Of a stretch of DNA of 64,000 nt, positions 20,590 to 44,814 are shown piece by piece. The DNA is from Phycisphaerales bacterium Planc_01 (GTDB lineage Bacteria; Planctomycetota; Phycisphaerae; Sedimentisphaerales; Anaerobacaceae): positions 17,506 through 81,505 of the forward strand of contig LVBB01000139.1 in the NCBI GenBank assembly GCA_001603075.1. The letters run 5' to 3'. Under the pieces are notes generated by a model. The model was not told the DNA's origin, made no database searches, and was given only the letters and a program-made list of their open reading frames with translations. How positions within the stretch are numbered: position 1 is the first letter of the stretch; every line of letters starts with the position of its first letter. The position numbers and the translations under genes are program-made.

Positions 20590-20679
20590 GGGCGTTCTCC
20601 AAAGCCCATCTATAAGTCGCTGCCGCCAGGCGAATGAAACAAAAAGAAACACTGCGAGGTCGCATTTCTCCAGATACAG

Positions 20680-20700
20680 CATGGGCTCAAGCCCATCCTA
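20680..20700. repeat. Palindrome B copy (AGGATGGGCT family)
   Basis: GCATGGGCT-CA-AGCCCATCCT lies between two minus-strand genes, immediately after the stop of the phosphoesterase gene. It is inverted relative to the copy at 19940, so the two copies bracket the gene at 19879-20589. Confidence 0.75.
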
Positions 20701-33691: not shown

Positions 33692-36600
33692 CTACGAACC
33701 CGGGGCCCAGCGGACGGCGACAACGTCGTCGAGGTCGGTGCGCAGATCGGCTGGGATGGCGATGGCAAGGCCGTCGCCCTGGCGCTCGTATGGGAGCGTC
33801 CGGCCGGTACGCATCAACAGGACCGCCTCCGGCTCGGGCACCTTGGAAAGCGTGACGGGGCCCTGGTGCGAAGGCAACACGTGCAGATACCAGGTATCGC
33901 TGCGCGTGGTGATCGGGACGTTGCTGCGGTCCTCGCCGGGGGCCAGCCCGGCGCCGATGACTGAATCGCGGCTGTGGGCCATCCACTGCGAGAGATCGTC
34001 GCAGCAATTGTAGAACACATCGGGCATGGTGCCATCGGGGCGCGGCCCGACATTGCACAGGAAGTTGCCTCCCCACGCGCGGCAGTTGGCCAGGCGGCCC
34101 AGGACCCACGAAAGGGGCTTGAACCGTTCGCTCGGGACGTAGCCCCAGTGGCCGGTGGGCCAGATGTCGCAGGCCTCCCACCACTGGCCGGGTTTCCAGT
34201 GCTCGGGCTTGCCCGGCGTGCACTCGGTGGTGGCGAAATCGCCGAACCCGCTCCAGCGCGGATTGATCACGATGCCCGGCTGGAGCGATCGCACCCAGGC
34301 CAGCGTCTGCTCGGCGCGCATGTCGCCGACGCCGCTCCAGCCCATGCCGTCGAACCAGAGCAGATCGATCCTGCCGTAGCGGGTCAGCAGCTCGTGGATC
34401 TGGCCGAGCGTGTAGGCGTAGAACGCCTTGAAGTTCTCGAAGTTCTCCTCAGCCGGCGGCAGCGGAAACTTCGCCCGGTACTCCATCGCCTGCGGATAGC
34501 CCGGATAATGCCAGTCGCGAGGCGAGAAGTAGAAACCGACCTTCAGGCCGTGCTTGCGGCAGGCGTCGACATAGGGTTTGAGCAGGTCCCGACCGCCCAT
34601 GTACTGCTTCGTGCTGAAGTCGCCGAAGTTGGTCGGCCACAGAGCATAGCCGTCGTGATGCTTCGTCGTCAGCACCGCGTAGGTGAAGCCCGCCTTCTTC
34701 GCCGACGCCATCCACTTGTCGGGATCGTACTGCGTCGGATGGAACTTCTCTGCCAGGCCATAGTATTGCGACTGGTCCTGATTGTACTTCTTGTAGGGGT
34801 CGGAGCTGCCATGCCAGGGACAGCCCTTCATCATCGACCACGATGGATCGATCCCGTCCACGCTGTGGATGCCCCAGTGAAGGAACAAGCCGAAGCTCGC
34901 CTGGGGGAACCATTGGGCGTCGGGGTGCTTGGTCGGCAATTCCAGCTTGGGCTTTGGCGCGTTGAAGACCTTCATCGCCTCGGCCATCCAGGCCTCGTCG
35001 ATGGCATAGCCGCCCAGCTTGTTGTCACTCTCCTGTGGGCCGATCTTCTCGAAGGGAATCCGTTTGAAGCCCGGGATCGAATACGCAGGCGAATCGTCGC
35101 GCAGCGCGAGATTCAGGTTCGCCTCATCGACGAACTTCGGGTCCTGGTCCTCGATGTTGTCCTGGAAGGTGTAGAAATCGAATCCGCCGCAGGCGCCGAG
35201 GCAGTTCTTCTCCAGCCAGCGTTCGTTCTTCCAGCCGAGATTGCGTGCGATGATGCAGCCTTCCGGCTCCTTGGCCATTTCCAGACCGTTGTCGAGGATG
35301 TGCGCCAGTCGCGGATAGCGTTCGCTCCACGGCGGCTGCGTGTAGTTGTACCGCTTAATCTTGTCGAGGAGCTTCCAACTGTTGTCCTTGTCCATCCAGG
35401 CCTTGCCGCGCCGGTCGGTGAAGTGGGCCGAGCCGCACCTGGCGATGACGTTGTTGTCGATGGTGTTGTCGCGTCCGCCCCCGCACATGATGGCCCGTCC
35501 GCTGATCCGGTAGAAGACGTTGCCGACCACCGTGATGCCGCTGGCGCAGTCGTCGAGATAGACCGCGTGGACGCCGTTGCTGCCCGTCAGATGGCTTTCG
35601 ATATCGTGGAAGAAATTGTTCTCGATCACGTTGCCGCGCAGGCCCCAGTCGCGTCCGGCGTACACCGAGCCGGCGTCGTCGACCTCGTAGCAGACGCCGT
35701 AGATTTCGTTGAGCTCGATCCGGTGCTCGTTGCCGTTGAAGAGAATCGCCGAGTGCGGAGCGTCGTAGAGCTTGTTGTTGGCCGCGATATTGCCCACACC
35801 GTTGAGGCGGATCGCGGGGGCATAGGTCCGTTGCCACCGGCCGAAATCGTGAATCGTACAATGGCGCACGAAGTTGTTGCCCGGCACGAGCGTGGCGCGG
35901 TCTCCGCCGGATACGGCTACACCCGTCTGCCCGATGCTGTGGATCGTGCAATGCACTACGCCGTGGTTTGTACCGGAGATCTCGATGCCGTTGCCGCGCA
36001 TGTTGCGGACCGTGCAACGCTCGATCCAAACGTCACTGCCGCCGGAGACCTCGATGCCGTTCCGGACGCCCATCTCGATCGTCAGCCCTTCGATCCGAAT
36101 GTGTGAGGCGTTCTTCATCACGATGATCGGCGCCTCCAGCGTGGAGATCAGAACATCGCCCTTGTCGAGATCCTCCGGCGGCCAGAAGTAAAGACTTCCG
36201 GCGGCCCGGTCGAAATACCACTCGCCCGGCTGGTCGATCTCCTCGAGGAGGTTGACGACATAGTATGGCTTCTTCGCCTGCATCCCATACGGCGGGACCT
36301 TGTCGGCGGTGATCGTCTTGGCCGTCGTGTCGATCTTCGCGATCTTCACGATCTGGTTCGACCACCCGTGACGCCAGTAGCCGACGGCGTGCGCCTCGGA
36401 CGCGGCGAGCCAGCGTTCGGGACGTGGATCGTCGTAGCCGAACGCAATATCGTCGGCAGCCGACGTCGTGCGAACGAACCCTTCGTTGGGCCAGCGGGCC
36501 AGTGGCATCAGCTTGCCGCCGAAGCTCAGCTCCATCAGCAGCGGCGTCTGCGGGATGGCCTTCAACCCGGAGATTCGAACGCACTGACCCCGGGCGCTCG

Positions 36601-36976
36601 GATCGAGGCGGCTCCAGACAGCATCTGCCGATGAGACCTTTGAGAAGTCCCCGGCTGCCAACTGGCGGCCGCCGATCAGACGAACGGTCTCGCCCGGATA
36701 GGCGCGGTAGACGACAGGCCTTCCGGGCCGGCCCGAGTCCTTCTCGGCCAGCGCGAACGACTCCGTGCGGAAGTAGTCGCCGCCGCGAATCACGACTGTG
36801 GCGTCTTCGGACTCGTCCTGTCGGACAGCATCGCGGGCCCTCTCCAGCGTGGCAAAGGGCTTTTCAATGGTTCCGGGATTCGCGTCGTCTCCGTCGGTCG
36901 CGACGTAGTAGTCGTGGGCGAAGGTGATGGAACCGAACAGGCAGATGCCCCAGGCGAGCAGCAGGGCCTTCTTCAT
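33692..36976 (-). CDS. Secreted GH141-like beta-helix fused to GH29 alpha-L-fucosidase
   Basis: The 1094-residue protein has a signal peptide (about 1-20, ending T-F-A). Part 1 (about 20-690) is a right-handed beta-helix glycosidase of the GH141 type: HDYYVATDGDDANPGTIEKP, LARWPNEGF, WYFDRAAGSLYFWP, many helix rungs, ARNLGWKNERW. Part 2 (about 715-1000) is a GH29 fucosidase: WFPQASFGLFLHWGIHSVDG, TTKHHDGYALW, LKVGFYFSPRDWHYPGYP, LLWFDGMGW with the nucleophile Asp near 876, and ANCRAWGGNFLCNVGPRPDG. Both families remove L-fucose, so the fusion probably strips fucose from algal or pectic polysaccharide (substrate inferred). The start is ATG 36976 after GAGGAG. Confidence 0.88.
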   Translation of the reverse strand: MKKALLLAWGICLFGSITFAHDYYVATDGDDANPGTIEKPFATLERARDAVRQDESEDATVVIRGGDYFRTESFALAEKDSGRPGRPVVYRAYPGETVRLIGGRQLAAGDFSKVSSADAVWSRLDPSARGQCVRISGLKAIPQTPLLMELSFGGKLMPLARWPNEGFVRTTSAADDIAFGYDDPRPERWLAASEAHAVGYWRHGWSNQIVKIAKIDTTAKTITADKVPPYGMQAKKPYYVVNLLEEIDQPGEWYFDRAAGSLYFWPPEDLDKGDVLISTLEAPIIVMKNASHIRIEGLTIEMGVRNGIEVSGGSDVWIERCTVRNMRGNGIEISGTNHGVVHCTIHSIGQTGVAVSGGDRATLVPGNNFVRHCTIHDFGRWQRTYAPAIRLNGVGNIAANNKLYDAPHSAILFNGNEHRIELNEIYGVCYEVDDAGSVYAGRDWGLRGNVIENNFFHDIESHLTGSNGVHAVYLDDCASGITVVGNVFYRISGRAIMCGGGRDNTIDNNVIARCGSAHFTDRRGKAWMDKDNSWKLLDKIKRYNYTQPPWSERYPRLAHILDNGLEMAKEPEGCIIARNLGWKNERWLEKNCLGACGGFDFYTFQDNIEDQDPKFVDEANLNLALRDDSPAYSIPGFKRIPFEKIGPQESDNKLGGYAIDEAWMAEAMKVFNAPKPKLELPTKHPDAQWFPQASFGLFLHWGIHSVDGIDPSWSMMKGCPWHGSSDPYKKYNQDQSQYYGLAEKFHPTQYDPDKWMASAKKAGFTYAVLTTKHHDGYALWPTNFGDFSTKQYMGGRDLLKPYVDACRKHGLKVGFYFSPRDWHYPGYPQAMEYRAKFPLPPAEENFENFKAFYAYTLGQIHELLTRYGRIDLLWFDGMGWSGVGDMRAEQTLAWVRSLQPGIVINPRWSGFGDFATTECTPGKPEHWKPGQWWEACDIWPTGHWGYVPSERFKPLSWVLGRLANCRAWGGNFLCNVGPRPDGTMPDVFYNCCDDLSQWMAHSRDSVIGAGLAPGEDRSNVPITTRSDTWYLHVLPSHQGPVTLSKVPEPEAVLLMRTGRTLPYERQGDGLAIAIPADLRTDLDDVVAVRWAPGS

Positions 36977-37006
36977 CGCAGGTCTCCTCAACCGGAATGA
37001 TGACTG

Positions 37007-37459
37007 CTATGCTGGAGAATCCGTGGAGGGACTCTCCGCCGGTACGGGCGCCGGGGCGGCCTTGGCCGGCTTGACACCGAGAAACAGCAGGAACAGGCCC
37101 AGCGCCCCAAGGACCAGACCGCCGACGGGCCCGGCATCCGGGCCTCCATTGACGGAAGGGGCCGCCGCAAGATAGCGAATCGGGACAGCAGAGCCCGCAG
37201 ACGGCAGAGTCGCCGTGTTGAAGACCTTCTTGCGGGTGAAGCTACCAGTATAGTCCTTGCCGTTGACGCTGAACCGATAGGAGATCTGGTAGTTGTGGTC
37301 CATCGGGCTGTCCTGTTGGGTGACGGCCTGCTCGACCTTGACGACGGTCGCCTGGGCCGTCTGCCCAATCAATCCAAGGGCCAGCCCGCGAACCCCAAGC
37401 AGGACCAACAGGATGCCCACACCCACGAGGATCAGACGGGTCCGATTCGACTTCTTCAT
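37007..37459 (-). CDS. DUF3592-type membrane protein
   Basis: The 150-residue protein has two membrane spans (about 8-30, LILVGVGILLVLLGVRGLALGL; about 110-130, GPVGGLVLGALGLFLLFLGV) around an extracytoplasmic beta-rich part with the DUF3592 pattern (ATVVKVEQ...YQISYRFSVNGKDYTGSF). The C-terminus is Ala/Pro/Ser-rich. The function is unknown. It lies 30 bp upstream of the fucosidase gene on the same strand. The start is ATG 37459; the upstream ATG or GTG starts have no better site. Confidence 0.78.
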   Translation of the reverse strand: MKKSNRTRLILVGVGILLVLLGVRGLALGLIGQTAQATVVKVEQAVTQQDSPMDHNYQISYRFSVNGKDYTGSFTRKKVFNTATLPSAGSAVPIRYLAAAPSVNGGPDAGPVGGLVLGALGLFLLFLGVKPAKAAPAPVPAESPSTDSPA

Positions 37460-37612
37460 ACACGCCCTCAATCGCAAACCATCGACATTTCTTCAGAGCC
37501 CAGCAGCGGCAGACGACGCCGGCGGCACGAGCCCATAGCCGGCAGTGTACTGTCTGAGCATAGCCAAAGGCAAGGTCTGAAGGTCGGCTCGATCCATGAA
37601 GATCGTGGTGGC

Positions 37613-37640
37613 TTGCTTTTGGCATGCGGCTCGATATCAT
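37613..37640 (+). promoter_or_regulatory. Candidate sigma-70 promoter of the cyclase-channel operon
   Basis: TTGCTT (37613-37618), a 16-nt spacer and TATCAT (37635-37640), 78 bp before the first ATG of the five-gene operon. Confidence 0.45.
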
Positions 37641-37718
37641 TGTGTGCGATGCTGTCCGATGCAGATCGTGATCCGAGACGGCGGGAATGGAGTGCGCTTT
37701 CACAGGAGATGAGTAGTC

Positions 37719-38195
37719 ATGAAGACGAAGGTTCTTGCGATGCTGGTCGCGATTACCGTCCCGATATGCGTCGGGATCGCATTCGCAGCGCCGATGAGCG
37801 TCCAGGTGCGCAACGGCAAGGTGCGCGCGACGCCATCGCAACTGGGAAAGACGGTAGCCACGGTGGACTACGGGGACGTTGTCGAAACCGGGGCGGTGCA
37901 AAGCGGCTGGTATCCGGTCACCATGCCCGACGGCACGAAGGGCTGGCTGCACGAGTCGGCTCTCTCGAAGAAGCCGGTCGCCATGCGAGCCGGGACATCC
38001 GACGTGGACACCGGCGTCTCATCCGACGAGGTCGCCCTGGCCGGCAAGGGATTCAACGAGCAGGTCGAGGCCAAGCTCCGGGCCGAAGGGACACTGGACT
38101 ACACGTGGGTGGATCGCATGGCGGCGTTTGAGGTCGGCGTCGAGCAGATCGTGGAATTCCGCAGGCAAGGCAATCTGCCGGGAGGTGCCCTATGA
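37719..38195 (+). CDS. Exported bacterial SH3-domain protein
   Basis: The 158-residue protein has a signal peptide (about 1-24, ending A-F-A-A) and a bacterial SH3 domain (about 27-85; VQVRNGKVRATPSQLGKTVATVDYG...GWYPVTMPDGTKGWLHESAL), which typically binds peptidoglycan peptides. AGGAGATGAG precedes the ATG. It is the first gene of the operon; its stop overlaps the M48 peptidase start (ATGA), so the two are translationally coupled and probably act together in the envelope. Confidence 0.9.
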   Translation: MKTKVLAMLVAITVPICVGIAFAAPMSVQVRNGKVRATPSQLGKTVATVDYGDVVETGAVQSGWYPVTMPDGTKGWLHESALSKKPVAMRAGTSDVDTGVSSDEVALAGKGFNEQVEAKLRAEGTLDYTWVDRMAAFEVGVEQIVEFRRQGNLPGGAL

Positions 38196-39118
38196 ACGCA
38201 AGGCACTGGCTGGCATTGAGCATCGGGGTGGGCCTGTTGGCCGCATTGTGGTTCTGCGGCTGCGAGGGCATGGGCGAGGTCGGCGCCGAGATCGGAAAGG
38301 CCACAGGCGTGCTGACCGACTCGGAGGCCGAATCGGTCAAACGCGGTGCCGCCGCCGTCGAGAAGAGCTGGCAGGATCTGACCCCGGAACAGGAGTACTA
38401 CATCGGCCGCGCCGTGGCGGCGCGCGTGTTCGAAACGTATCGGCCACTGGATCAGCCGCAGGCGAACGCCTATCTGAACGTGCTCGGCCAGTCGCTGGCG
38501 GTCTTTTCCGAGCGGCCCGAGACGTTTGGCGGCTACCGCTTCCTGCTGCTCGATTCCGATGAGGTCAACGCATTTGCCGCGCCGGGCGGATTGATCCTCG
38601 TGACGCGCGGCATGCTGCGCTGCTGCGAGAATGAGGACGAGTTGGCGGCCGTACTGGCCCATGAGATCTGTCATGTCCAGGCCAAACACGGGCTCCGCGC
38701 GATCAAGCAGAGCCGCCTGACCGAAGCGTTCACGATCGTCGCGGCCGAATCGGCCAAGCAGTTGGGCAGCGAAGAACTGGCGTCATTGACGCGCGAGTTC
38801 GAGTCGTCGGTGGGCGACGTGGTGATGACGCTGACGACGAGCGGCTATTCGCGGACGCAGGAGCGCGATGCGGACGCCGCAGCGGTGCGGCTGCTCAAAC
38901 GAGCCGGCTACCCTGAAGCGGCCATCATCACGATGCTGAACCGCATGAACGAGCGGCTCGCCGACGCGCGGGGCCTGGGCTTCGCCAAGACGCACCCATC
39001 GGCCACCAGCCGGATTGATGTGTTGAAGCCCGCAATCCCAACCGCGCAGGCCGCACCGGATGCCGTCCGGCAACAGCGTTTCGCCACGGCGATGCAGCCG
39101 GTTCTGGCCGGACAATAG
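38192..39118 (+). CDS. M48-family zinc metallopeptidase, probable lipoprotein
   Basis: The 308-residue BepA/Oma1-like peptidase has an export segment ending in L-W-F-C-G-C (possible lipid attachment), the M48 start region EQEYYIGRAVAARVFETY, NAFAAPGGLILVTRGML, the zinc motif H157-EIC-H161, and the third-ligand helix QERDADAAAVRLLKRAGY. THPSATSRID near the end is typical of the family. It is probably periplasmic and involved in envelope protein quality control. It is coupled to the SH3 gene upstream; the cyclase gene starts 43 bp downstream. Confidence 0.93.
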   Translation: MNARHWLALSIGVGLLAALWFCGCEGMGEVGAEIGKATGVLTDSEAESVKRGAAAVEKSWQDLTPEQEYYIGRAVAARVFETYRPLDQPQANAYLNVLGQSLAVFSERPETFGGYRFLLLDSDEVNAFAAPGGLILVTRGMLRCCENEDELAAVLAHEICHVQAKHGLRAIKQSRLTEAFTIVAAESAKQLGSEELASLTREFESSVGDVVMTLTTSGYSRTQERDADAAAVRLLKRAGYPEAAIITMLNRMNERLADARGLGFAKTHPSATSRIDVLKPAIPTAQAAPDAVRQQRFATAMQPVLAGQ

Positions 39119-39161
39119 ATCCTGTGCCGAACGCTTGCAGAGTTCAGGCGGGAAGGACAGC

Positions 39162-41252
39162 ATGCTCAAACGTGGCGGCAAGGTTCTGCGTGGAACGGCA
39201 ATCGGCCTGATCGCTGGGATCATGGCGCTGTTGCTCTGGCAACTCGGCGCCCTGGAATCCTGGGAAGCCCCCACGTGGGCGTGGCGCGCTCGCTCTTTCT
39301 CGGCGAGAGAAACCCTCTCGCCCGAGATCAAGTTGATCCTGCTGGATCAGGCCAGCCTCGACTGGGCCCAGCGGGAGAACGGATGGGGCTGGCCCTGGCC
39401 GCGCGAGGTCTACGGCGCGATCTCCGCGTTCTGCGAGCGAGGCGGGGCCCGGGCGGTGGCCTTGGATCTGTTGTTCACCGAGCCGTCGGTCTACGGCGTC
39501 TCGGACGACGAGGCGATGGGCGAAGCCCTGAAGGCCGGTCCGCCGGCGGTCCTGGCGCTGATGCCTGGCGGAAGCCTGGAGACATGGCCCGAGTCCATGC
39601 CGCGTCCGGCCCGTATGACGACCGTGGCGACGGCGATCGAGCCCAATCATCTGCTGTTTCCGGTTCCGGAAGTGGCGGCGGGCGCTATGGCCTTCGGACA
39701 CGTCGCGGGCCTGCCGGACGCCGATGGCGTGTTCCGGCGAATCTCGCCGTTCTGTCGATTCGATGGCATCGAGATCCCGGCGCTGGGGCTGGCAACTTAC
39801 CTGATTGCGCAGCCGGCAGAAGTGACCGCCGAAAACGGCCGCCTGCGGATCGGCGACAAGATCGTTCCTCTCGACGAGCGCGGCGACGCCGTCTTGCGCT
39901 TCCGGGGCCGCGATGGTTTGCCCGAAGCGGTCTCTGCCGCGGCGGTCATCCAGTCGGAACTGCGCTTGCGCGACGAGGAGACCCCGGTGCTGTCGCCCGA
40001 GACATTCAAGGACTCCTATGTTTTCGTCGGATGCAGCGCTCCGGCCCTGCTTGATCTGCGGCCGACGCCGGTCAACCCCAAGTGTCCTGGGGTCATATTG
40101 CACGCCACCTTCGTCGATAACCTCATCACTGACTCTTTCCTCGCCAAAGCAGGTGGCTCCGCCGTCGCGCTGGGCGTGCTGGCGACGGCCATAGGGGCCG
40201 CGCTGTCGCTGACGTATGGCGGCCGCTGGTGGCAAGCGGGACCGCTTGCGGTCGTCTGGTTGAGCATACCGATGCTGGTCGGTTTCGCCGCCTATGCCCA
40301 AGGATGGTGGTGGCCGGTCGTCACCCAGGCCGGGGCCTCCGGGCTGGCGATGGTTGGGGCGCTGGCCGCCAACTACTGGACGGAAGGCCGGCAGAAGGCG
40401 TTCATCAAACAGGCGTTCCGTCACTACCTCAGCGGCGACGTGATCGAGAAGATCATCCGCGACCCCAAGCATCTCCAACTCGGCGGGGAGAAACGCGAAT
40501 TGACGATCATGTTCACCGACCTGGCCGGCTTCTCCACCTTCTCCGAGAAGCTGGGACCGGTTGAGTTAACGACTCTTCTGAACGAGTACCTCACCGAGAT
40601 GACGGACATCATCATGGAAGAGGGCGGTACGCTCGACAAGTATGAGGGCGACGCCATCATCGCCTTCTGGAACGCGCCGCTGGCGCAGCCGGACCACGCG
40701 GTCCGCGCCTGCCGCGCGGCACTGCGCTGCCAGCGCCGACTGGCGGAGCTTCGCGACGGTTTCCAGCAGCGGACCGGGGCCGTGCTGCGGATGAGGGTGG
40801 GCCTGAACACCGGTGACGTCGTCGTGGGCAACATGGGCTCGCGCAAGCGATTCAACTACACGATCCTGGGCGACGCCGCGAACCTCGCCGCCCGCCTGGA
40901 GGGCGCCAACAAGGCCTTTGGCACAGAGACGATGGTCTCGGAGAGCACGTGGCGACTGGCATCCGCCGAGTTTACTGGTCGAGTGCTGGCCGACCTGCGG
41001 GTGGTAGGTCGCAGGAGCGCCGTCACCGTGTACGAGTTGACCGGATTCGCAAGCGACGCGACGCCGGCGGAGTGGAAGATGTTTGCGGCTGGCCTGACGT
41101 TCTTTCGCGAGGGGCAGTTCGCCAAGGCAGAGGAGACGTTTCGAGGATTGTCGGACGATCCAGCCGCCCAGCGGTACGCTCGGCGCTGTGCGGAATTGGC
41201 GGCGAACCGGCCGGAATCGTGGGACGGCGTGTGGGAGTTGACGCAGAAATGA
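39162..41252 (+). CDS. CHASE2-sensor class III adenylate cyclase
   Basis: The 696-residue membrane protein has a first span (about 9-28), an extracytoplasmic CHASE2 domain (about 30-330; SPEIKLILLDQASLDW, ARAVALDLLFTEPS, FKDSYVFVGCSAPALLDLRPTP), three spans (about 335-415) and a class III cyclase domain (about 440-615). Catalytic points are present: the metal Asp in FTDLAGFSTFSEKLG and in DKYEGDAIIAFW, and the Asn/Arg pair in LGDAANLAARLEG. The Lys of DKYEGD and the Thr-Ile-Leu-Gly-Asp context favour ATP over GTP. A short TPR-like tail follows (KAEETFRGL). The start is ATG 39162 after GGAAGGA. The stop overlaps the next start. Confidence 0.94.
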   Translation: MLKRGGKVLRGTAIGLIAGIMALLLWQLGALESWEAPTWAWRARSFSARETLSPEIKLILLDQASLDWAQRENGWGWPWPREVYGAISAFCERGGARAVALDLLFTEPSVYGVSDDEAMGEALKAGPPAVLALMPGGSLETWPESMPRPARMTTVATAIEPNHLLFPVPEVAAGAMAFGHVAGLPDADGVFRRISPFCRFDGIEIPALGLATYLIAQPAEVTAENGRLRIGDKIVPLDERGDAVLRFRGRDGLPEAVSAAAVIQSELRLRDEETPVLSPETFKDSYVFVGCSAPALLDLRPTPVNPKCPGVILHATFVDNLITDSFLAKAGGSAVALGVLATAIGAALSLTYGGRWWQAGPLAVVWLSIPMLVGFAAYAQGWWWPVVTQAGASGLAMVGALAANYWTEGRQKAFIKQAFRHYLSGDVIEKIIRDPKHLQLGGEKRELTIMFTDLAGFSTFSEKLGPVELTTLLNEYLTEMTDIIMEEGGTLDKYEGDAIIAFWNAPLAQPDHAVRACRAALRCQRRLAELRDGFQQRTGAVLRMRVGLNTGDVVVGNMGSRKRFNYTILGDAANLAARLEGANKAFGTETMVSESTWRLASAEFTGRVLADLRVVGRRSAVTVYELTGFASDATPAEWKMFAAGLTFFREGQFAKAEETFRGLSDDPAAQRYARRCAELAANRPESWDGVWELTQK

Positions 41253-42082
41253 CCATGCGGCTTTTCATCGGCGGAATGCGCGGCAGCCAGCCGGCTCTCG
41301 GGAGCCGTTTCGACGAGTTCGGCGGCGACACGACCTCGCTGCTGCTCGTCGGCTCCCACGGCGAACGGCTGGTGCTCGACGCGGGCACCGGGATGCGCGC
41401 CATCTCCGAGCAACTGGCCCAGACAGAATCCGGCAGGGTCACCGTGCTGTTCTCGCACTACCACCTCGATCACCTGATCGGACTGACGATGAACCCCTTG
41501 CTCTACAGCCCCAAGTGGTCGTTCAACTTCATCGGTCCGACATTCGCCGACGGAGGTGTTCACGACGCCGTGACAGGTCTGCTGGCCCAGCCGTACTGGC
41601 CGATCTCCTGGAAGCAGATGAGAGCGAAGATCGAGTTCACCGAATTCCCGGCCGAGGGAATCCAGGTCGGCGGCCTGCACGTGCAGGGCTGTCCCGTGCC
41701 CCATCCCGGCGGCTCTCTTGCCTATCGGGTGAGTGACACCGGCGGCGCTTCGCTGGTGTTCGCCACCGACATCGAGTGGCAGAAGCGCACACCCGCAGAC
41801 GAGACCGCGTTCAGAATGCTGTGCACCACCCCCGCGCCGGCGAACCTGCTCATCATCGATGCGCACTTCGGCCGCGAGCAGCAGGAGGCGTTTGTAGGCT
41901 GGGGACACACCTCGTGGCAAGACGGCCTGGAGATCGCCGCCTCGACAGGAATTCAACGAGTGCTTCTCGGGCACCACGCGCCGGGGGCCGACGACGCGGC
42001 GCTGCGCGCCTTGGAGCAGCAGGTGAAGAACGCATCGCCCGGCGCCGCGCTGGCGCGGGCCGGACAGTGGATCGTGATTTAG
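41249..42082 (+). CDS. MBL-fold metallo-hydrolase, possible cyclic-nucleotide phosphodiesterase
   Basis: The 277-residue protein is of the metallo-beta-lactamase fold. Its RNase Z/PhnP-like opening (GDTTSLLLVGSHGERLVLDAGTG) is followed by the dinuclear metal motif H70-Y-H72-L-D74-H75. Further ligands are probably the His in CPVPHPGGSLAYRV, the Asp in VFATDIEW and the His in LLGHHAP. Substrates are unknown; several MBL-fold enzymes hydrolyse cAMP, and its place between a cyclase and a cyclic-nucleotide-binding channel suggests that role (inference). The ATG at 41249 overlaps the cyclase stop. Confidence 0.87.
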   Translation: MTMRLFIGGMRGSQPALGSRFDEFGGDTTSLLLVGSHGERLVLDAGTGMRAISEQLAQTESGRVTVLFSHYHLDHLIGLTMNPLLYSPKWSFNFIGPTFADGGVHDAVTGLLAQPYWPISWKQMRAKIEFTEFPAEGIQVGGLHVQGCPVPHPGGSLAYRVSDTGGASLVFATDIEWQKRTPADETAFRMLCTTPAPANLLIIDAHFGREQQEAFVGWGHTSWQDGLEIAASTGIQRVLLGHHAPGADDAALRALEQQVKNASPGAALARAGQWIVI

Positions 42083-42095
42083 GAAGACAGCCCCC

Positions 42096-43709
42096 ATGTT
42101 GACATGGCTTGAACCTGTACTGCCCTACGTTCAGAACATCGCGCTGGCGATGGCGGCGCTTTTCGTCGCGTATCTGCTGACGCTTCCATTGCGGCGTCGT
42201 TACCTTCCCCCGGAAGGAACCGAGTTGCCCAAGCGTTCGAGGCGGCAATTCGTCGCCGCACTGGCAAGCTACATCGCATTCTCGGTGTGCGTGCTGGCGT
42301 TCTCCTTCCCACTGATCCACTGGATCGATCACACGGCGTTCTGGGCGCCGTATCATCAGGCGTGGCTGACGTTTTGGGCCATTCATGCGATGGTCCGGCT
42401 CATCGAGGGCCTGTTCGTCGAGCTGTTCGCGCAGATGGGCCGAGCCTGCCCTCTCAATCGCCTCACGCGAGGCCTGCTCCGCCTGGCCCTGATGCTGGGG
42501 GTGGCCTTCCTGCTGATCCGATACCAGTTGGACCTCCGAATCACCGTCTTGCTGACCTCGACCGCCATCGTCACCGGCGTCCTGGGTTTCGCCATGCAGG
42601 GGGTGTTGGGCAACCTGCTGGCGGGCATGTCGCTGCACGCCAGCCGCTCGTTGGCGGTCGGCGACTGGATCGAGGTCGATGGAACCATCGGCAAGGTCGT
42701 TCTGGTCAACTGGCGGGAGACGCGGCTGCGCACCACCGGCGGCCACATGGTCGTGATCCCGAACGGCAAGCTCGCCGACGCGACGATCCGCAACTTCTCG
42801 GCGCCCACGCCCCTGCGCCGTCACGAGGTGCCGGTCGCCGCCAGCTATGGCGACGCCCCGGGCGACGTGATCGCCGCTCTCGTCGAATCCGCCCAGAGTA
42901 TTCCGAGAGTCGAGAAGCACCCGGCGCCCGAGGCCTATGTGACCGGCTTCAAGGACTTCTGCATCGAGTACGTGCTGCGCTTCTGGTCGAAACAGTACGA
43001 GCAGCGCACGGCGATCGAAGGGCACGTGATGCGGATGATCTGGTACAAGTTCCAGCGGCGCGGGATCGAAATCCCGTTCCCGATGAGCGGCCGGCTGCTC
43101 GGCAACTTCCTCGAGGCGGTCCACGCCCAGCAGTTCGAGAAGCCGCTGGCCTCGGAGATCGAGCACATCGTCGATGACCTCGTCCGCAGCGACTTCGGAC
43201 GCAAGCTCATGGCCGATTCCGAGGGCGTCTGCCTGCTGAGCCGGGATGAGTTGAGAAGCGTCGCGCGGGACGTCAAACGCACGCGTTTCACGCATGGCGA
43301 AACCCTGATGCACCAGAACGACCAGGGAGAGTCCTTCTATGTCCTGGTCCAGGGGACCGTCAGGGGCAGCATCGCGAACACCGACACGGCCCGACCCATC
43401 GAGTTCGAACTGCAGCCCGGCGCGCTCTTCGGTGAGATGAGCCTGCTGACGGGCCTGCCGCGAAGCGCGACCATGACCGCCGTCACGGACTGCGAATTGC
43501 TCGAATTCGACGGGCGAGCCTTCGCCCACCTGCTGTCGCTGCGAGAGGAGATTCCCCACGTGCTCTCCGACCTGGCGGCCGCCCGCGCCGCCGAGAACGC
43601 CGAGTCGCTGGAGAAGCTGCGAGCTTCGGCCGTCGTCCCGCCCGAACTGGCGCGCGACGGCATCCTGCACCGCCTCAAACGCATGCTCGGCGAATGGCGA
43701 GGCCGATAG
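42096..43709 (+). CDS. MscS-family channel with cyclic-nucleotide-binding domain (bCNG type)
   Basis: The protein is 537 residues with four predicted membrane spans (about 8-30, 52-75, 88-110, 125-165). The MscS pore helix and beta domain (GVLGFAMQGVLGNLLAGMSL, VGDWIEVDGTIGKVV, TTGGHMVVIPNGKLADATIRNFS) and a C-terminal cyclic-nucleotide-binding domain (about 395-490) follow. The phosphate-binding cassette FGEMSLLTGLPRSATMTA has the Glu and Arg used to hold cNMP. It belongs to the bacterial cyclic-nucleotide-gated channel group. It lies 13 bp after the MBL gene and ends the operon. Confidence 0.95.
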   Translation: MLTWLEPVLPYVQNIALAMAALFVAYLLTLPLRRRYLPPEGTELPKRSRRQFVAALASYIAFSVCVLAFSFPLIHWIDHTAFWAPYHQAWLTFWAIHAMVRLIEGLFVELFAQMGRACPLNRLTRGLLRLALMLGVAFLLIRYQLDLRITVLLTSTAIVTGVLGFAMQGVLGNLLAGMSLHASRSLAVGDWIEVDGTIGKVVLVNWRETRLRTTGGHMVVIPNGKLADATIRNFSAPTPLRRHEVPVAASYGDAPGDVIAALVESAQSIPRVEKHPAPEAYVTGFKDFCIEYVLRFWSKQYEQRTAIEGHVMRMIWYKFQRRGIEIPFPMSGRLLGNFLEAVHAQQFEKPLASEIEHIVDDLVRSDFGRKLMADSEGVCLLSRDELRSVARDVKRTRFTHGETLMHQNDQGESFYVLVQGTVRGSIANTDTARPIEFELQPGALFGEMSLLTGLPRSATMTAVTDCELLEFDGRAFAHLLSLREEIPHVLSDLAAARAAENAESLEKLRASAVVPPELARDGILHRLKRMLGEWRGR

Positions 43710-43714
43710 CATCT

Positions 43715-43740
43715 GTAGGATGGGCTTTAGCCCATGCTGT
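43715..43740. repeat. Palindrome B copy (AGGATGGGCT family)
   Basis: TGTAGGATGGGCT-TT-AGCCCATGCTG lies in the 43-bp gap between the channel gene and the convergent galactanase gene; it may serve as a 3' hairpin for both. Confidence 0.8.
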
Positions 43741-43752
43741 TTCTCAACCCTG

Positions 43753-44814
43753 TCAGTGATGCGTGTACTTGTCGAACACGCCGATGACAGGCAAGGCGTT
43801 GCCGTCGTCGTCGAACATGCCGCGACGCCCCAGCGGACCTGCTACGGCGGGCTCCCACCAGAAGACGCCCTTGCCCCGATTGTGCGGTGTCGCCACTACG
43901 ATGCGGTGGACTTCGTCCAGGAATTGCCTCTGCCCTTCCGGCGTTTCCGGGAACGGCGCCGGCTTGTCACGGTATTCGGCGGGCCGCCAGTTGTAGGCCA
44001 CCTCCACGAGGATGATGTCCTTCTTGTACGTCTCGGCCATGAAGATCAGGTTCTCCCGCAGATTGAGCAGACTGCCGTGCCACCAGGGATAGTACGACTG
44101 GCCGATCACGTCGTAGGGCACGTCGTAGGAGTGCAGCTTGTCGAAGAATGCCTTGGTCGTCTTGACGTCACCGCCGCGGTCGATGTGGATCATGATGAGC
44201 GGTCGCGGCCCATCGCCTCGCCCGGCCTCAACGCCGTCGATGCCCGCCTTGAGCAGCTCGGCGAAGTTGCTCCAGTTGTCGGGCAGCTTGCCGTCGGGCC
44301 AGAGCATGCCGGGAGTGATCTCGTTGCCGATCTGAACCATGTCGGGCAGCGCGTTGGCGTCGCGAAAGGCGCTGATCGTATCGCGTGTATACTCGAACAC
44401 CGCCCGGACCAGCTCGGCGTGCGATTTGCCCTCCCACGCCTTGGGGATGAATTGCTTGCCCGGGTCGGCCCACGTGTCAGAATAGTGATAGTTGAGCAAG
44501 AACTTGTAGCCCAGTTTTTTGGCGTCCTGCGCCAGCGCGATCGTGTATGCAAGATCATTCGGCAGCCGCGTCGGCGTGTGGAACAGCCGCAGGCGAATCC
44601 AGTTGTACCCGTGGTCTTTGAAGATCTGAAGGCCCGGCTTGCCCTGCCCTTCGTCCTTGAACACCGTGCCCCGATCCTCCGCCTGCTTGAGAAACGAAAG
44701 GTCCGCCCCGATGGCATAGTCCAGAGCCTGTGACACACGAGGCAGCAATGTTCCCAGCGCAACAGACAGCAGAACAAGCAGGCACGTCGTGCAGAATCGG
44801 TTGTGCCCTCGCAT
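43753..44814 (-). CDS. Secreted arabinogalactan endo-beta-1,4-galactanase (GH53)
   Basis: The 353-residue protein has a signal peptide (about 1-30). GH53 blocks are AIGADLSFLKQAEDRG, GYNWIRLRLFHTP, FLLNYHYSDTWADPGKQ, QIGNEITPGMLWPDG with acid/base E165, and ILVEVAYNW with nucleophile E271. It cleaves beta-1,4-galactan side chains of pectin or arabinogalactan. The length is normal. The start is ATG 44814. It stands at the 3' edge of a run of minus-strand secreted-protein genes. Confidence 0.95.
   Translation of the reverse strand: MRGHNRFCTTCLLVLLSVALGTLLPRVSQALDYAIGADLSFLKQAEDRGTVFKDEGQGKPGLQIFKDHGYNWIRLRLFHTPTRLPNDLAYTIALAQDAKKLGYKFLLNYHYSDTWADPGKQFIPKAWEGKSHAELVRAVFEYTRDTISAFRDANALPDMVQIGNEITPGMLWPDGKLPDNWSNFAELLKAGIDGVEAGRGDGPRPLIMIHIDRGGDVKTTKAFFDKLHSYDVPYDVIGQSYYPWWHGSLLNLRENLIFMAETYKKDIILVEVAYNWRPAEYRDKPAPFPETPEGQRQFLDEVHRIVVATPHNRGKGVFWWEPAVAGPLGRRGMFDDDGNALPVIGVFDKYTHH

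Follow-up and report, generated by a model that had tools for sequence, protein, structure and literature searches.

The question raised by this locus is whether a bacterium can keep the maker, the eraser and the receptor of a cyclic nucleotide within one operon, with a channel as the receiving part. The locus consists of five genes of Phycisphaerales bacterium Planc_01, at positions 37719-43709 of a 64,000-nucleotide stretch of contig LVBB01000139.1 (this whole stretch is referred to as the window), and the last gene encodes a channel of the bacterial cyclic nucleotide-gated (bCNG) architecture. To our knowledge, the in vivo role of bCNG channels and the signal that they answer are open. Judged from sequence, we consider it somewhat probable that the five genes form a self-contained cyclic AMP (cAMP) circuit, in which envelope sensing would be coupled to a cAMP-gated channel.

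All five genes lie on the + strand and encode, in order, an SH3 domain protein (37719-38195, 158 amino acids (aa); Pfam SH3_3), an M48 metallopeptidase with a lipoprotein-like N-terminus (38192-39118, 308 aa; Peptidase_M48), a CHASE2 protein with a class III nucleotidyl cyclase domain (39162-41252, 696 aa; CHASE2 and Guanylate_cyc), a metallo-beta-lactamase (MBL)-fold hydrolase (41249-42082, 277 aa; Lactamase_B_2) and an MscS-type channel with a C-terminal cyclic nucleotide monophosphate (cNMP)-binding domain (42096-43709, 537 aa; MS_channel_2nd/3rd and cNMP_binding). Each product exceeded the curated Pfam cut-off, which bears out the five packed genes of the original prediction. Three of the four junctions were also, as it had claimed, overlapping or shorter than 15 bp: the SH3/M48 and cyclase/MBL pairs each share a 4-bp ATGA overlap, and 13 bp separate the MBL gene from the channel gene. 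The M48/cyclase gap is 43 bp with the cyclase start at 39162, which is probably the true one; the first start in the open reading frame list, 39060, would give an overlap of 59 bp with the M48 gene. When positions 37300-44000 were scanned on both strands, 8 terminator-like sites were found, compared with 3.9 (sd 2.1) expected from shuffles, and none of them fell in the gaps between the five genes.

The channel matched the MscS beta-domain (PF00924, 64.2 bits), the C-terminal cage domain (PF21082, 41.5 bits) and the cNMP-binding domain (PF00027, 73.7 bits), and by structure comparison its pore and cage resembled those of Escherichia coli MscS. Among the best 60 of 144 matches to solved structures, the C-terminal domain was closest to Toxoplasma PCR12, followed by protein kinase A regulatory subunits and the channel domain of Mll3241. 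The phosphate-binding cassette reads GEMSLLTGLPRSAT; G446, E447 and R456 were invariant in all 20 channels of a first alignment, and R456 was kept in 74/77 channels of a wider one. Invariance of G446 and E447 in the wider set is biased because some of its sequences had been retrieved by a pattern containing FGEM[SA]LLTG, and R456 lies outside this pattern. These residues point to a cNMP pocket with ligand-contacting Glu and Arg, and the channel would be gated by a cNMP. An observation on such channels elsewhere is that one 16-kb contig carries two tandem bCNG genes (L050:7479-10900) with no cyclase match in the contig.

The cyclase retains D453, K493, D497, T567, N574 and R578; the first four were present in 35/35 aligned sequences and the last two in 34/34 covering sequences. 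We take the Lys/Thr pair, together with the two metal-binding Asp and the Asn and Arg transition-state residues, to be the signature of adenylate-type class IIIb cyclases. Adenylate cyclases also scored best when the domain was compared with solved structures, with guanylate cyclases lower, and the product would be cAMP. The CHASE2 domain (PF05226, 149.5 bits) is placed between an N-terminal transmembrane helix and the C-terminal ones; the predicted model, moderately confident overall, has helices at 2-28, 332-353, 356-379 and 386-419, with a mean predicted local distance difference test score (pLDDT) of 73 and low confidence in much of the CHASE2 part.

Makers and receptors were then counted over whole genomes as PF00211 and PF00027 matches at E ≤ 0.001. 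The genome of Planc_01 (97.4% complete) has one match to each, both in the operon, and the same was found in all 10 genomes that carry the operon (four of them 75-87% complete). Among 27 other genomes of the family, PF00027 was matched in one and PF00211, over the cut-off, in five, and 9/24 genomes from other families of the order had cNMP-binding domains outside such operons (two of these genomes below or partly below the cut-off). As a positive control, PF00027 gave matches in genomes with CRP-type proteins, such as those of E. coli and Bacillus subtilis. As the genome search gave no further maker or receptor of this type, the messenger may act on the channel alone, which strengthens the reading of the locus as a complete circuit; and since no other cNMP-binding domain was found there, the output of the circuit would be ionic or osmotic, not transcriptional. 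These counts also bear on a different explanation, namely an envelope-stress operon in which tension drives the channel, the cNMP-binding domain is structural or vestigial and the cyclase signals to an unrecognised receptor. It would fit the SH3, M48 and CHASE2 parts, which all face the envelope, and the title of a 2012 paper, which reports one bCNG member as tension-gated; as the pocket Glu447 and Arg456 are both kept in every channel of the first alignment, and no PF00027 domain besides that of the channel was found in any of the 10 operon genomes, we find this explanation improbable.

The fourth gene would supply the eraser. Its product matched PF12706 and carries SHYHLDH, fitting the [T/S]HXHXDH motif of atypical class II phosphodiesterases (PDEs), a class that includes Rv1339, YhfI and CpdA according to PMC9293780; for YhfI, PMC9117128 gives a preference for cAMP and cGMP over cCMP and cUMP. 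The metal ligands were kept, four of them in 7/7 and four more in 8/8 covering sequences. With the predicted model (mean pLDDT 90.4), the nearest solved folds were those of BA1088 (1zkp), RNase Z and YhfI; for YhfI (6kns), TM-scores by target reached up to 0.80. Because the fold is near that of YhfI and the motif class is shared, a cNMP phosphodiesterase is plausible, and motif and model together make the protein a candidate of the atypical class II kind. That it is the RNase Z of the cell was rejected as the principal reading because a six-frame search found a better RNase Z match elsewhere in the genome (C14, 58.9 bits, itself under the curated cut-off, versus 20.4 bits for the operon protein).

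How general the arrangement is was examined by gene-neighbourhood surveys, whose counts rest on profile matches; the profiles were built from close orthologs of the operon and miss distant forms, of SH3 above all, the labels of metagenome-assembled genome (MAG) records are possibly wrong, and loci from within a single genus or family do not count as independent. Among 61 genomes comprising Planc_01 itself and members of its genus, family and order, 11 gave a match to the channel at 1e-20, ten of them at ≥70% identity (own genome included) and the eleventh at 29%. All five genes stand in order in 8 of these ten, and in the remaining two (L020, L024) the contig begins inside the cyclase gene with the rest in place; the operon was found in all six examined genomes of the genus. 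In a phylum sample, where at most three candidates per genome were scored, the channel was matched at 1e-40 in 17/392 genomes, our own among them. One from a distant family (L046, genome G343) has all five genes in order, with a channel of 46% identity. Two more have the channel with a CHASE2-cyclase, of which L051 has the M48 gene and L054 ends just past the cyclase, and in L055 the CHASE2-cyclase, SH3 and M48 genes lie a few kb from the channel.

The survey of named genomes covered the best 80 loci, of which 61 have a single frame encoding both the MscS and the cNMP-binding domain; the closest channel among the matches listed, at 77% identity, belongs to a Phycisphaerales MAG. A CHASE2-cyclase lay within 7 kb at 10/61 loci, and at 5 of the 28 loci flanked on each side by 6 kb or more. 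Full five-gene sets were found in Phycisphaerales UBA2218 (L112), Candidatus Aminicenantes (L116) and two unclassified bacteria (L115 and L143, the latter with the cyclase and MBL genes some 0.8 kb apart). A Verrucomicrobia MAG (L114) has cyclase-MBL-channel on a contig starting inside CHASE2, three Acidobacteria MAGs (L118, L137, L154) have cyclase-M48-channel with MBL and SH3 not detected, a Nitrospira MAG (L130) has channel-cyclase-SH3-M48, and L124 has MBL and cyclase genes on the strand opposite the channel; a further, clipped locus (L113) has MBL-channel. Over 13 full operons, pairwise distances of the five proteins were correlated with r of 0.93-0.98. Because the same order occurs in distant genomes, and because the five genes, compared with those of the closest relative, have ratios of nonsynonymous to synonymous substitution rates (dN/dS) of 0.08-0.23, the arrangement is more than a chance one. 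The original prediction had proposed a possible complete circuit. What stands is that the cyclase, the channel as receptor and the two envelope proteins are all intact and have been conserved together as a unit, that no other class III cyclase or cNMP-binding domain was found in the genome of Planc_01, and that the order holds in close genomes and recurs far away; the set is not the usual setting of a bCNG channel.

Several results weigh against a closed circuit of this kind. At 51/61 bCNG loci no CHASE2-cyclase was present within 7 kb in the available sequence, and it was lacking at 12 of the 16 phylum-sample channel loci other than our own (several on short contigs; one of the 12, L058, gave no match for the cNMP-binding part). 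No CRP-type receptor was found in the ten operon genomes, but the search was not aimed at cyclases outside class III or at cAMP receptors of a different kind. The MBL protein scored 40.5 bits against NF041851, the equivalog model of cyclic nucleotide-degrading phosphodiesterases, where the cut-off of 400 was not reached; RNase Z ranked first in its profile search; and the fold scores of its model were near-equal (Z of 28.0-29.1 for bacterial RNase Z versus 28.1 for YhfI). No MBL gene was seen at the cyclase-M48-bCNG loci L118, L130, L137 and L154, and no CHASE2-plus-cyclase gene in 20 fetched neighbourhoods of other, mostly best-scoring, MBL relatives.

An alternative is a circuit without an eraser, in which cyclase and channel are a cNMP pair and the MBL protein is RNase Z-like or another phosphoesterase with a different substrate. 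The scores of the MBL protein are indeed equally weak for the PDE model and for the RNase Z model TIGR02651 (39.5 bits, curated cut-off of 292.95 not reached), and the RNase Z ranking and the four loci lacking the gene fit as well. Against this alternative, the start of the MBL gene overlaps the stop of the cyclase gene, MBL distances track those of the other operon proteins (r 0.95-0.97), the better RNase Z match C14 lies elsewhere in the genome, and an MBL gene is found near bCNG genes mainly together with a CHASE2-cyclase (6/10 loci, with the opposite-strand L124 counted, versus 3/51 without), and we regard it as rather unlikely. MBL relatives were matched in 74/392 genomes of the phylum sample, and the idea that the MBL gene marks the circuit wherever it is present was rejected, since none of the 20 neighbourhoods has the CHASE2-plus-cyclase gene; they contain one weak CHASE2 match (17 bits, L095) and one M48 match (55 bits, L106). 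In three genomes of one genus (L109, L110, L111), MBL hydrolase genes of the wider family stand in tandem, and each genome also has a bCNG gene on another contig.

The first two genes encode the envelope partners. The SH3 protein has a hydrophobic, signal-peptide-like N-terminus (residues 5-23) and is presumed to be periplasmic; its segment C-terminal of the SH3 domain has no Pfam match of its own and was included in the profile that finds distant SH3 relatives. In the M48 protein the HExxH motif and the third ligand Glu are intact, and the corresponding alignment columns were kept in 29/29 and 28/28 covering sequences. A lipobox-like tetrapeptide precedes the domain in 19/30 M48 proteins by a loose test that admits some chance matches. 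Over its 5.65 Mb the genome of Planc_01 gave 10 matches to M48, of which six were strong, and a related M48 is present in 45/294 genomes of the phylum sample.

When 20 cyclase neighbourhoods of the phylum were picked by long cyclase matches (similar rows such as G289 being left out), M48 was found beside the cyclase in 17/20 and SH3 in 14/20, the M48 misses being L205, whose contig ends inside the cyclase, L210 and L211; an MBL or channel gene was found at 0/20. Starting from M48 instead, 30 loci (one per genome, own included) had a CHASE2 or cyclase match within about 1.5 kb in 26 cases and SH3 in 23, and the four without a cyclase match (L217, L223, L227, L239) are clipped by contig ends. 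Near bCNG genes, M48 (>40 bits, within 7 kb) was present at 8/10 loci with a CHASE2-cyclase versus 0/51 without (Fisher p 1.5e-8); in the two misses (L114, L124) the contig stops at the cyclase, and at three of the 51 (L157, L163, L175) an M48 gene lies 7.0-8.0 kb away. Cyclase and M48 also occur together in one Nitrospira and three acidobacterial MAGs. From this co-occurrence of M48 and SH3 with the cyclase, we infer that SH3-M48-CHASE2-cyclase is a widespread input unit, to which MBL and channel have been joined as output in some lineages. At two loci (L195, L196), genes for SpoIIE-type phosphatases, one of which weakly matches STAS, lie upstream of the cyclase, adjacent to or one gene from the CHASE2-cyclase-M48 set, and may represent another output of it. 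Five loci of one genus (L198, L201, L202, L203, L206) have two M48 stretches after the cyclase.

As for how the circuit might operate, the wall-binding SH3 protein and the M48 lipoprotein would together set, in the periplasm, the state of the extracytoplasmic CHASE2 domain, possibly by proteolysis on the part of M48, and so report the state of the envelope or wall. The cyclase would then make cAMP and raise its level, cAMP would bind the C-terminal domain of the channel and change its conductance, and the MBL enzyme would remove cAMP and reset the system. A more specific version is possible but more doubtful than the circuit itself: a transcription-free cAMP circuit with one maker, one eraser and one receptor, the channel, on one transcript, whose input is the widespread SH3-M48-CHASE2-cyclase triad, with the periplasmic M48 lipoprotein protease as part of the switch and with outputs that differ by lineage.

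The set is bounded, since the genes on both sides are on the - strand, a DUF3592 gene upstream (37007-37477) and a GH53 gene downstream (43753-44814; both by Pfam); among the close loci, some of which end too early, the former recurs in L019 only and the latter nowhere. Just 3' of the channel stop, a 22-bp palindromic element, TAGGATGGGCTTTAGCCCATGC, at 43716-43737 spans a terminator-like site (43720-43735), and a second copy with one mismatch lies at 20679-20700 (chance expectation 0); the element is repeat-element-like and might be a terminator after the channel gene. Relative to the closest relative, L019, dS is nearly twice as high for cyclase (0.48) and MBL (0.42), at 39162-42082, as for SH3, M48 and channel (0.22-0.27), which hints that the central part of the operon has recombined. 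Farther upstream, on the - strand (33692-36991), a large protein is predicted in which a right-handed beta-helix part, weakly matching GH141, is fused to an alpha-L-fucosidase domain.

Each part of the set is a known family. In a limited literature search, with subscription papers mostly outside it, we found no paper describing the five-gene set, its closed character or the SH3-M48-CHASE2-cyclase core. With the channel as the only cNMP-binding-domain protein found, beside the only class III cyclase found, the question of bCNG function becomes directly testable, and the uncharacterised SH3-M48-CHASE2-cyclase unit becomes tied to a possible output, the channel.

Compared with the bCNG channels of the MscS superfamily, for which Caldwell 2010 and Malcolm 2012 are cited in the literature, the channel has the same MscS pore, cage and C-terminal cNMP-binding domain, but unlike most of them it shares an operon with a cyclase of its own, two envelope proteins and an MBL hydrolase. 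On the input side, the receptor-type adenylyl cyclases CyaA and CyaB of Myxococcus xanthus, tied to osmosensing as cited in PMC7643160, are likewise membrane receptor cyclases linked to osmotic stress; likened by description only, they offer a precedent on the input side but none on that of the output. The MBL protein shares PF12706, the [T/S]HXHXDH motif and a similar predicted fold with the atypical class II PDEs Rv1339, YhfI and Corynebacterium glutamicum CpdA (PMC9293780), but is only about 20% identical to YhfI and far under the cut-off of the curated PDE model. The parts list of cyclase, membrane protein with cNMP-binding domain and MBL nuclease is also that of the Pycsar pairs with Apyc1 (PMC9117128). 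Reading the locus as such an antiphage system, in which the channel is the membrane effector and the MBL protein an Apyc1-like regulator, is highly improbable: Apyc1 (7u2r) is among the fold matches of the MBL model (Z 20.6, rank 50), and the PycC models of PADLOC match the cyclase, in its cyclase domain only (best 112.5 bits), as its effector models match only the cNMP-binding part, but SH3, M48 and MBL gave no PADLOC match, the cyclase has adenylate-type residues, and the set, coupled to SH3, M48 and CHASE2 across the phylum, is present in all six genomes of the genus. The set differs from Pycsar in its envelope sensor partners, its adenylate-type residues and its conserved chromosomal operon. 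In eukaryotes, cyclic nucleotide-gated channel signalling consists of a cyclase, a phosphodiesterase and a channel; the circuit proposed here would combine these three roles in the same way and likewise end in a channel, although the fold of its channel, of the MscS type, is unrelated.

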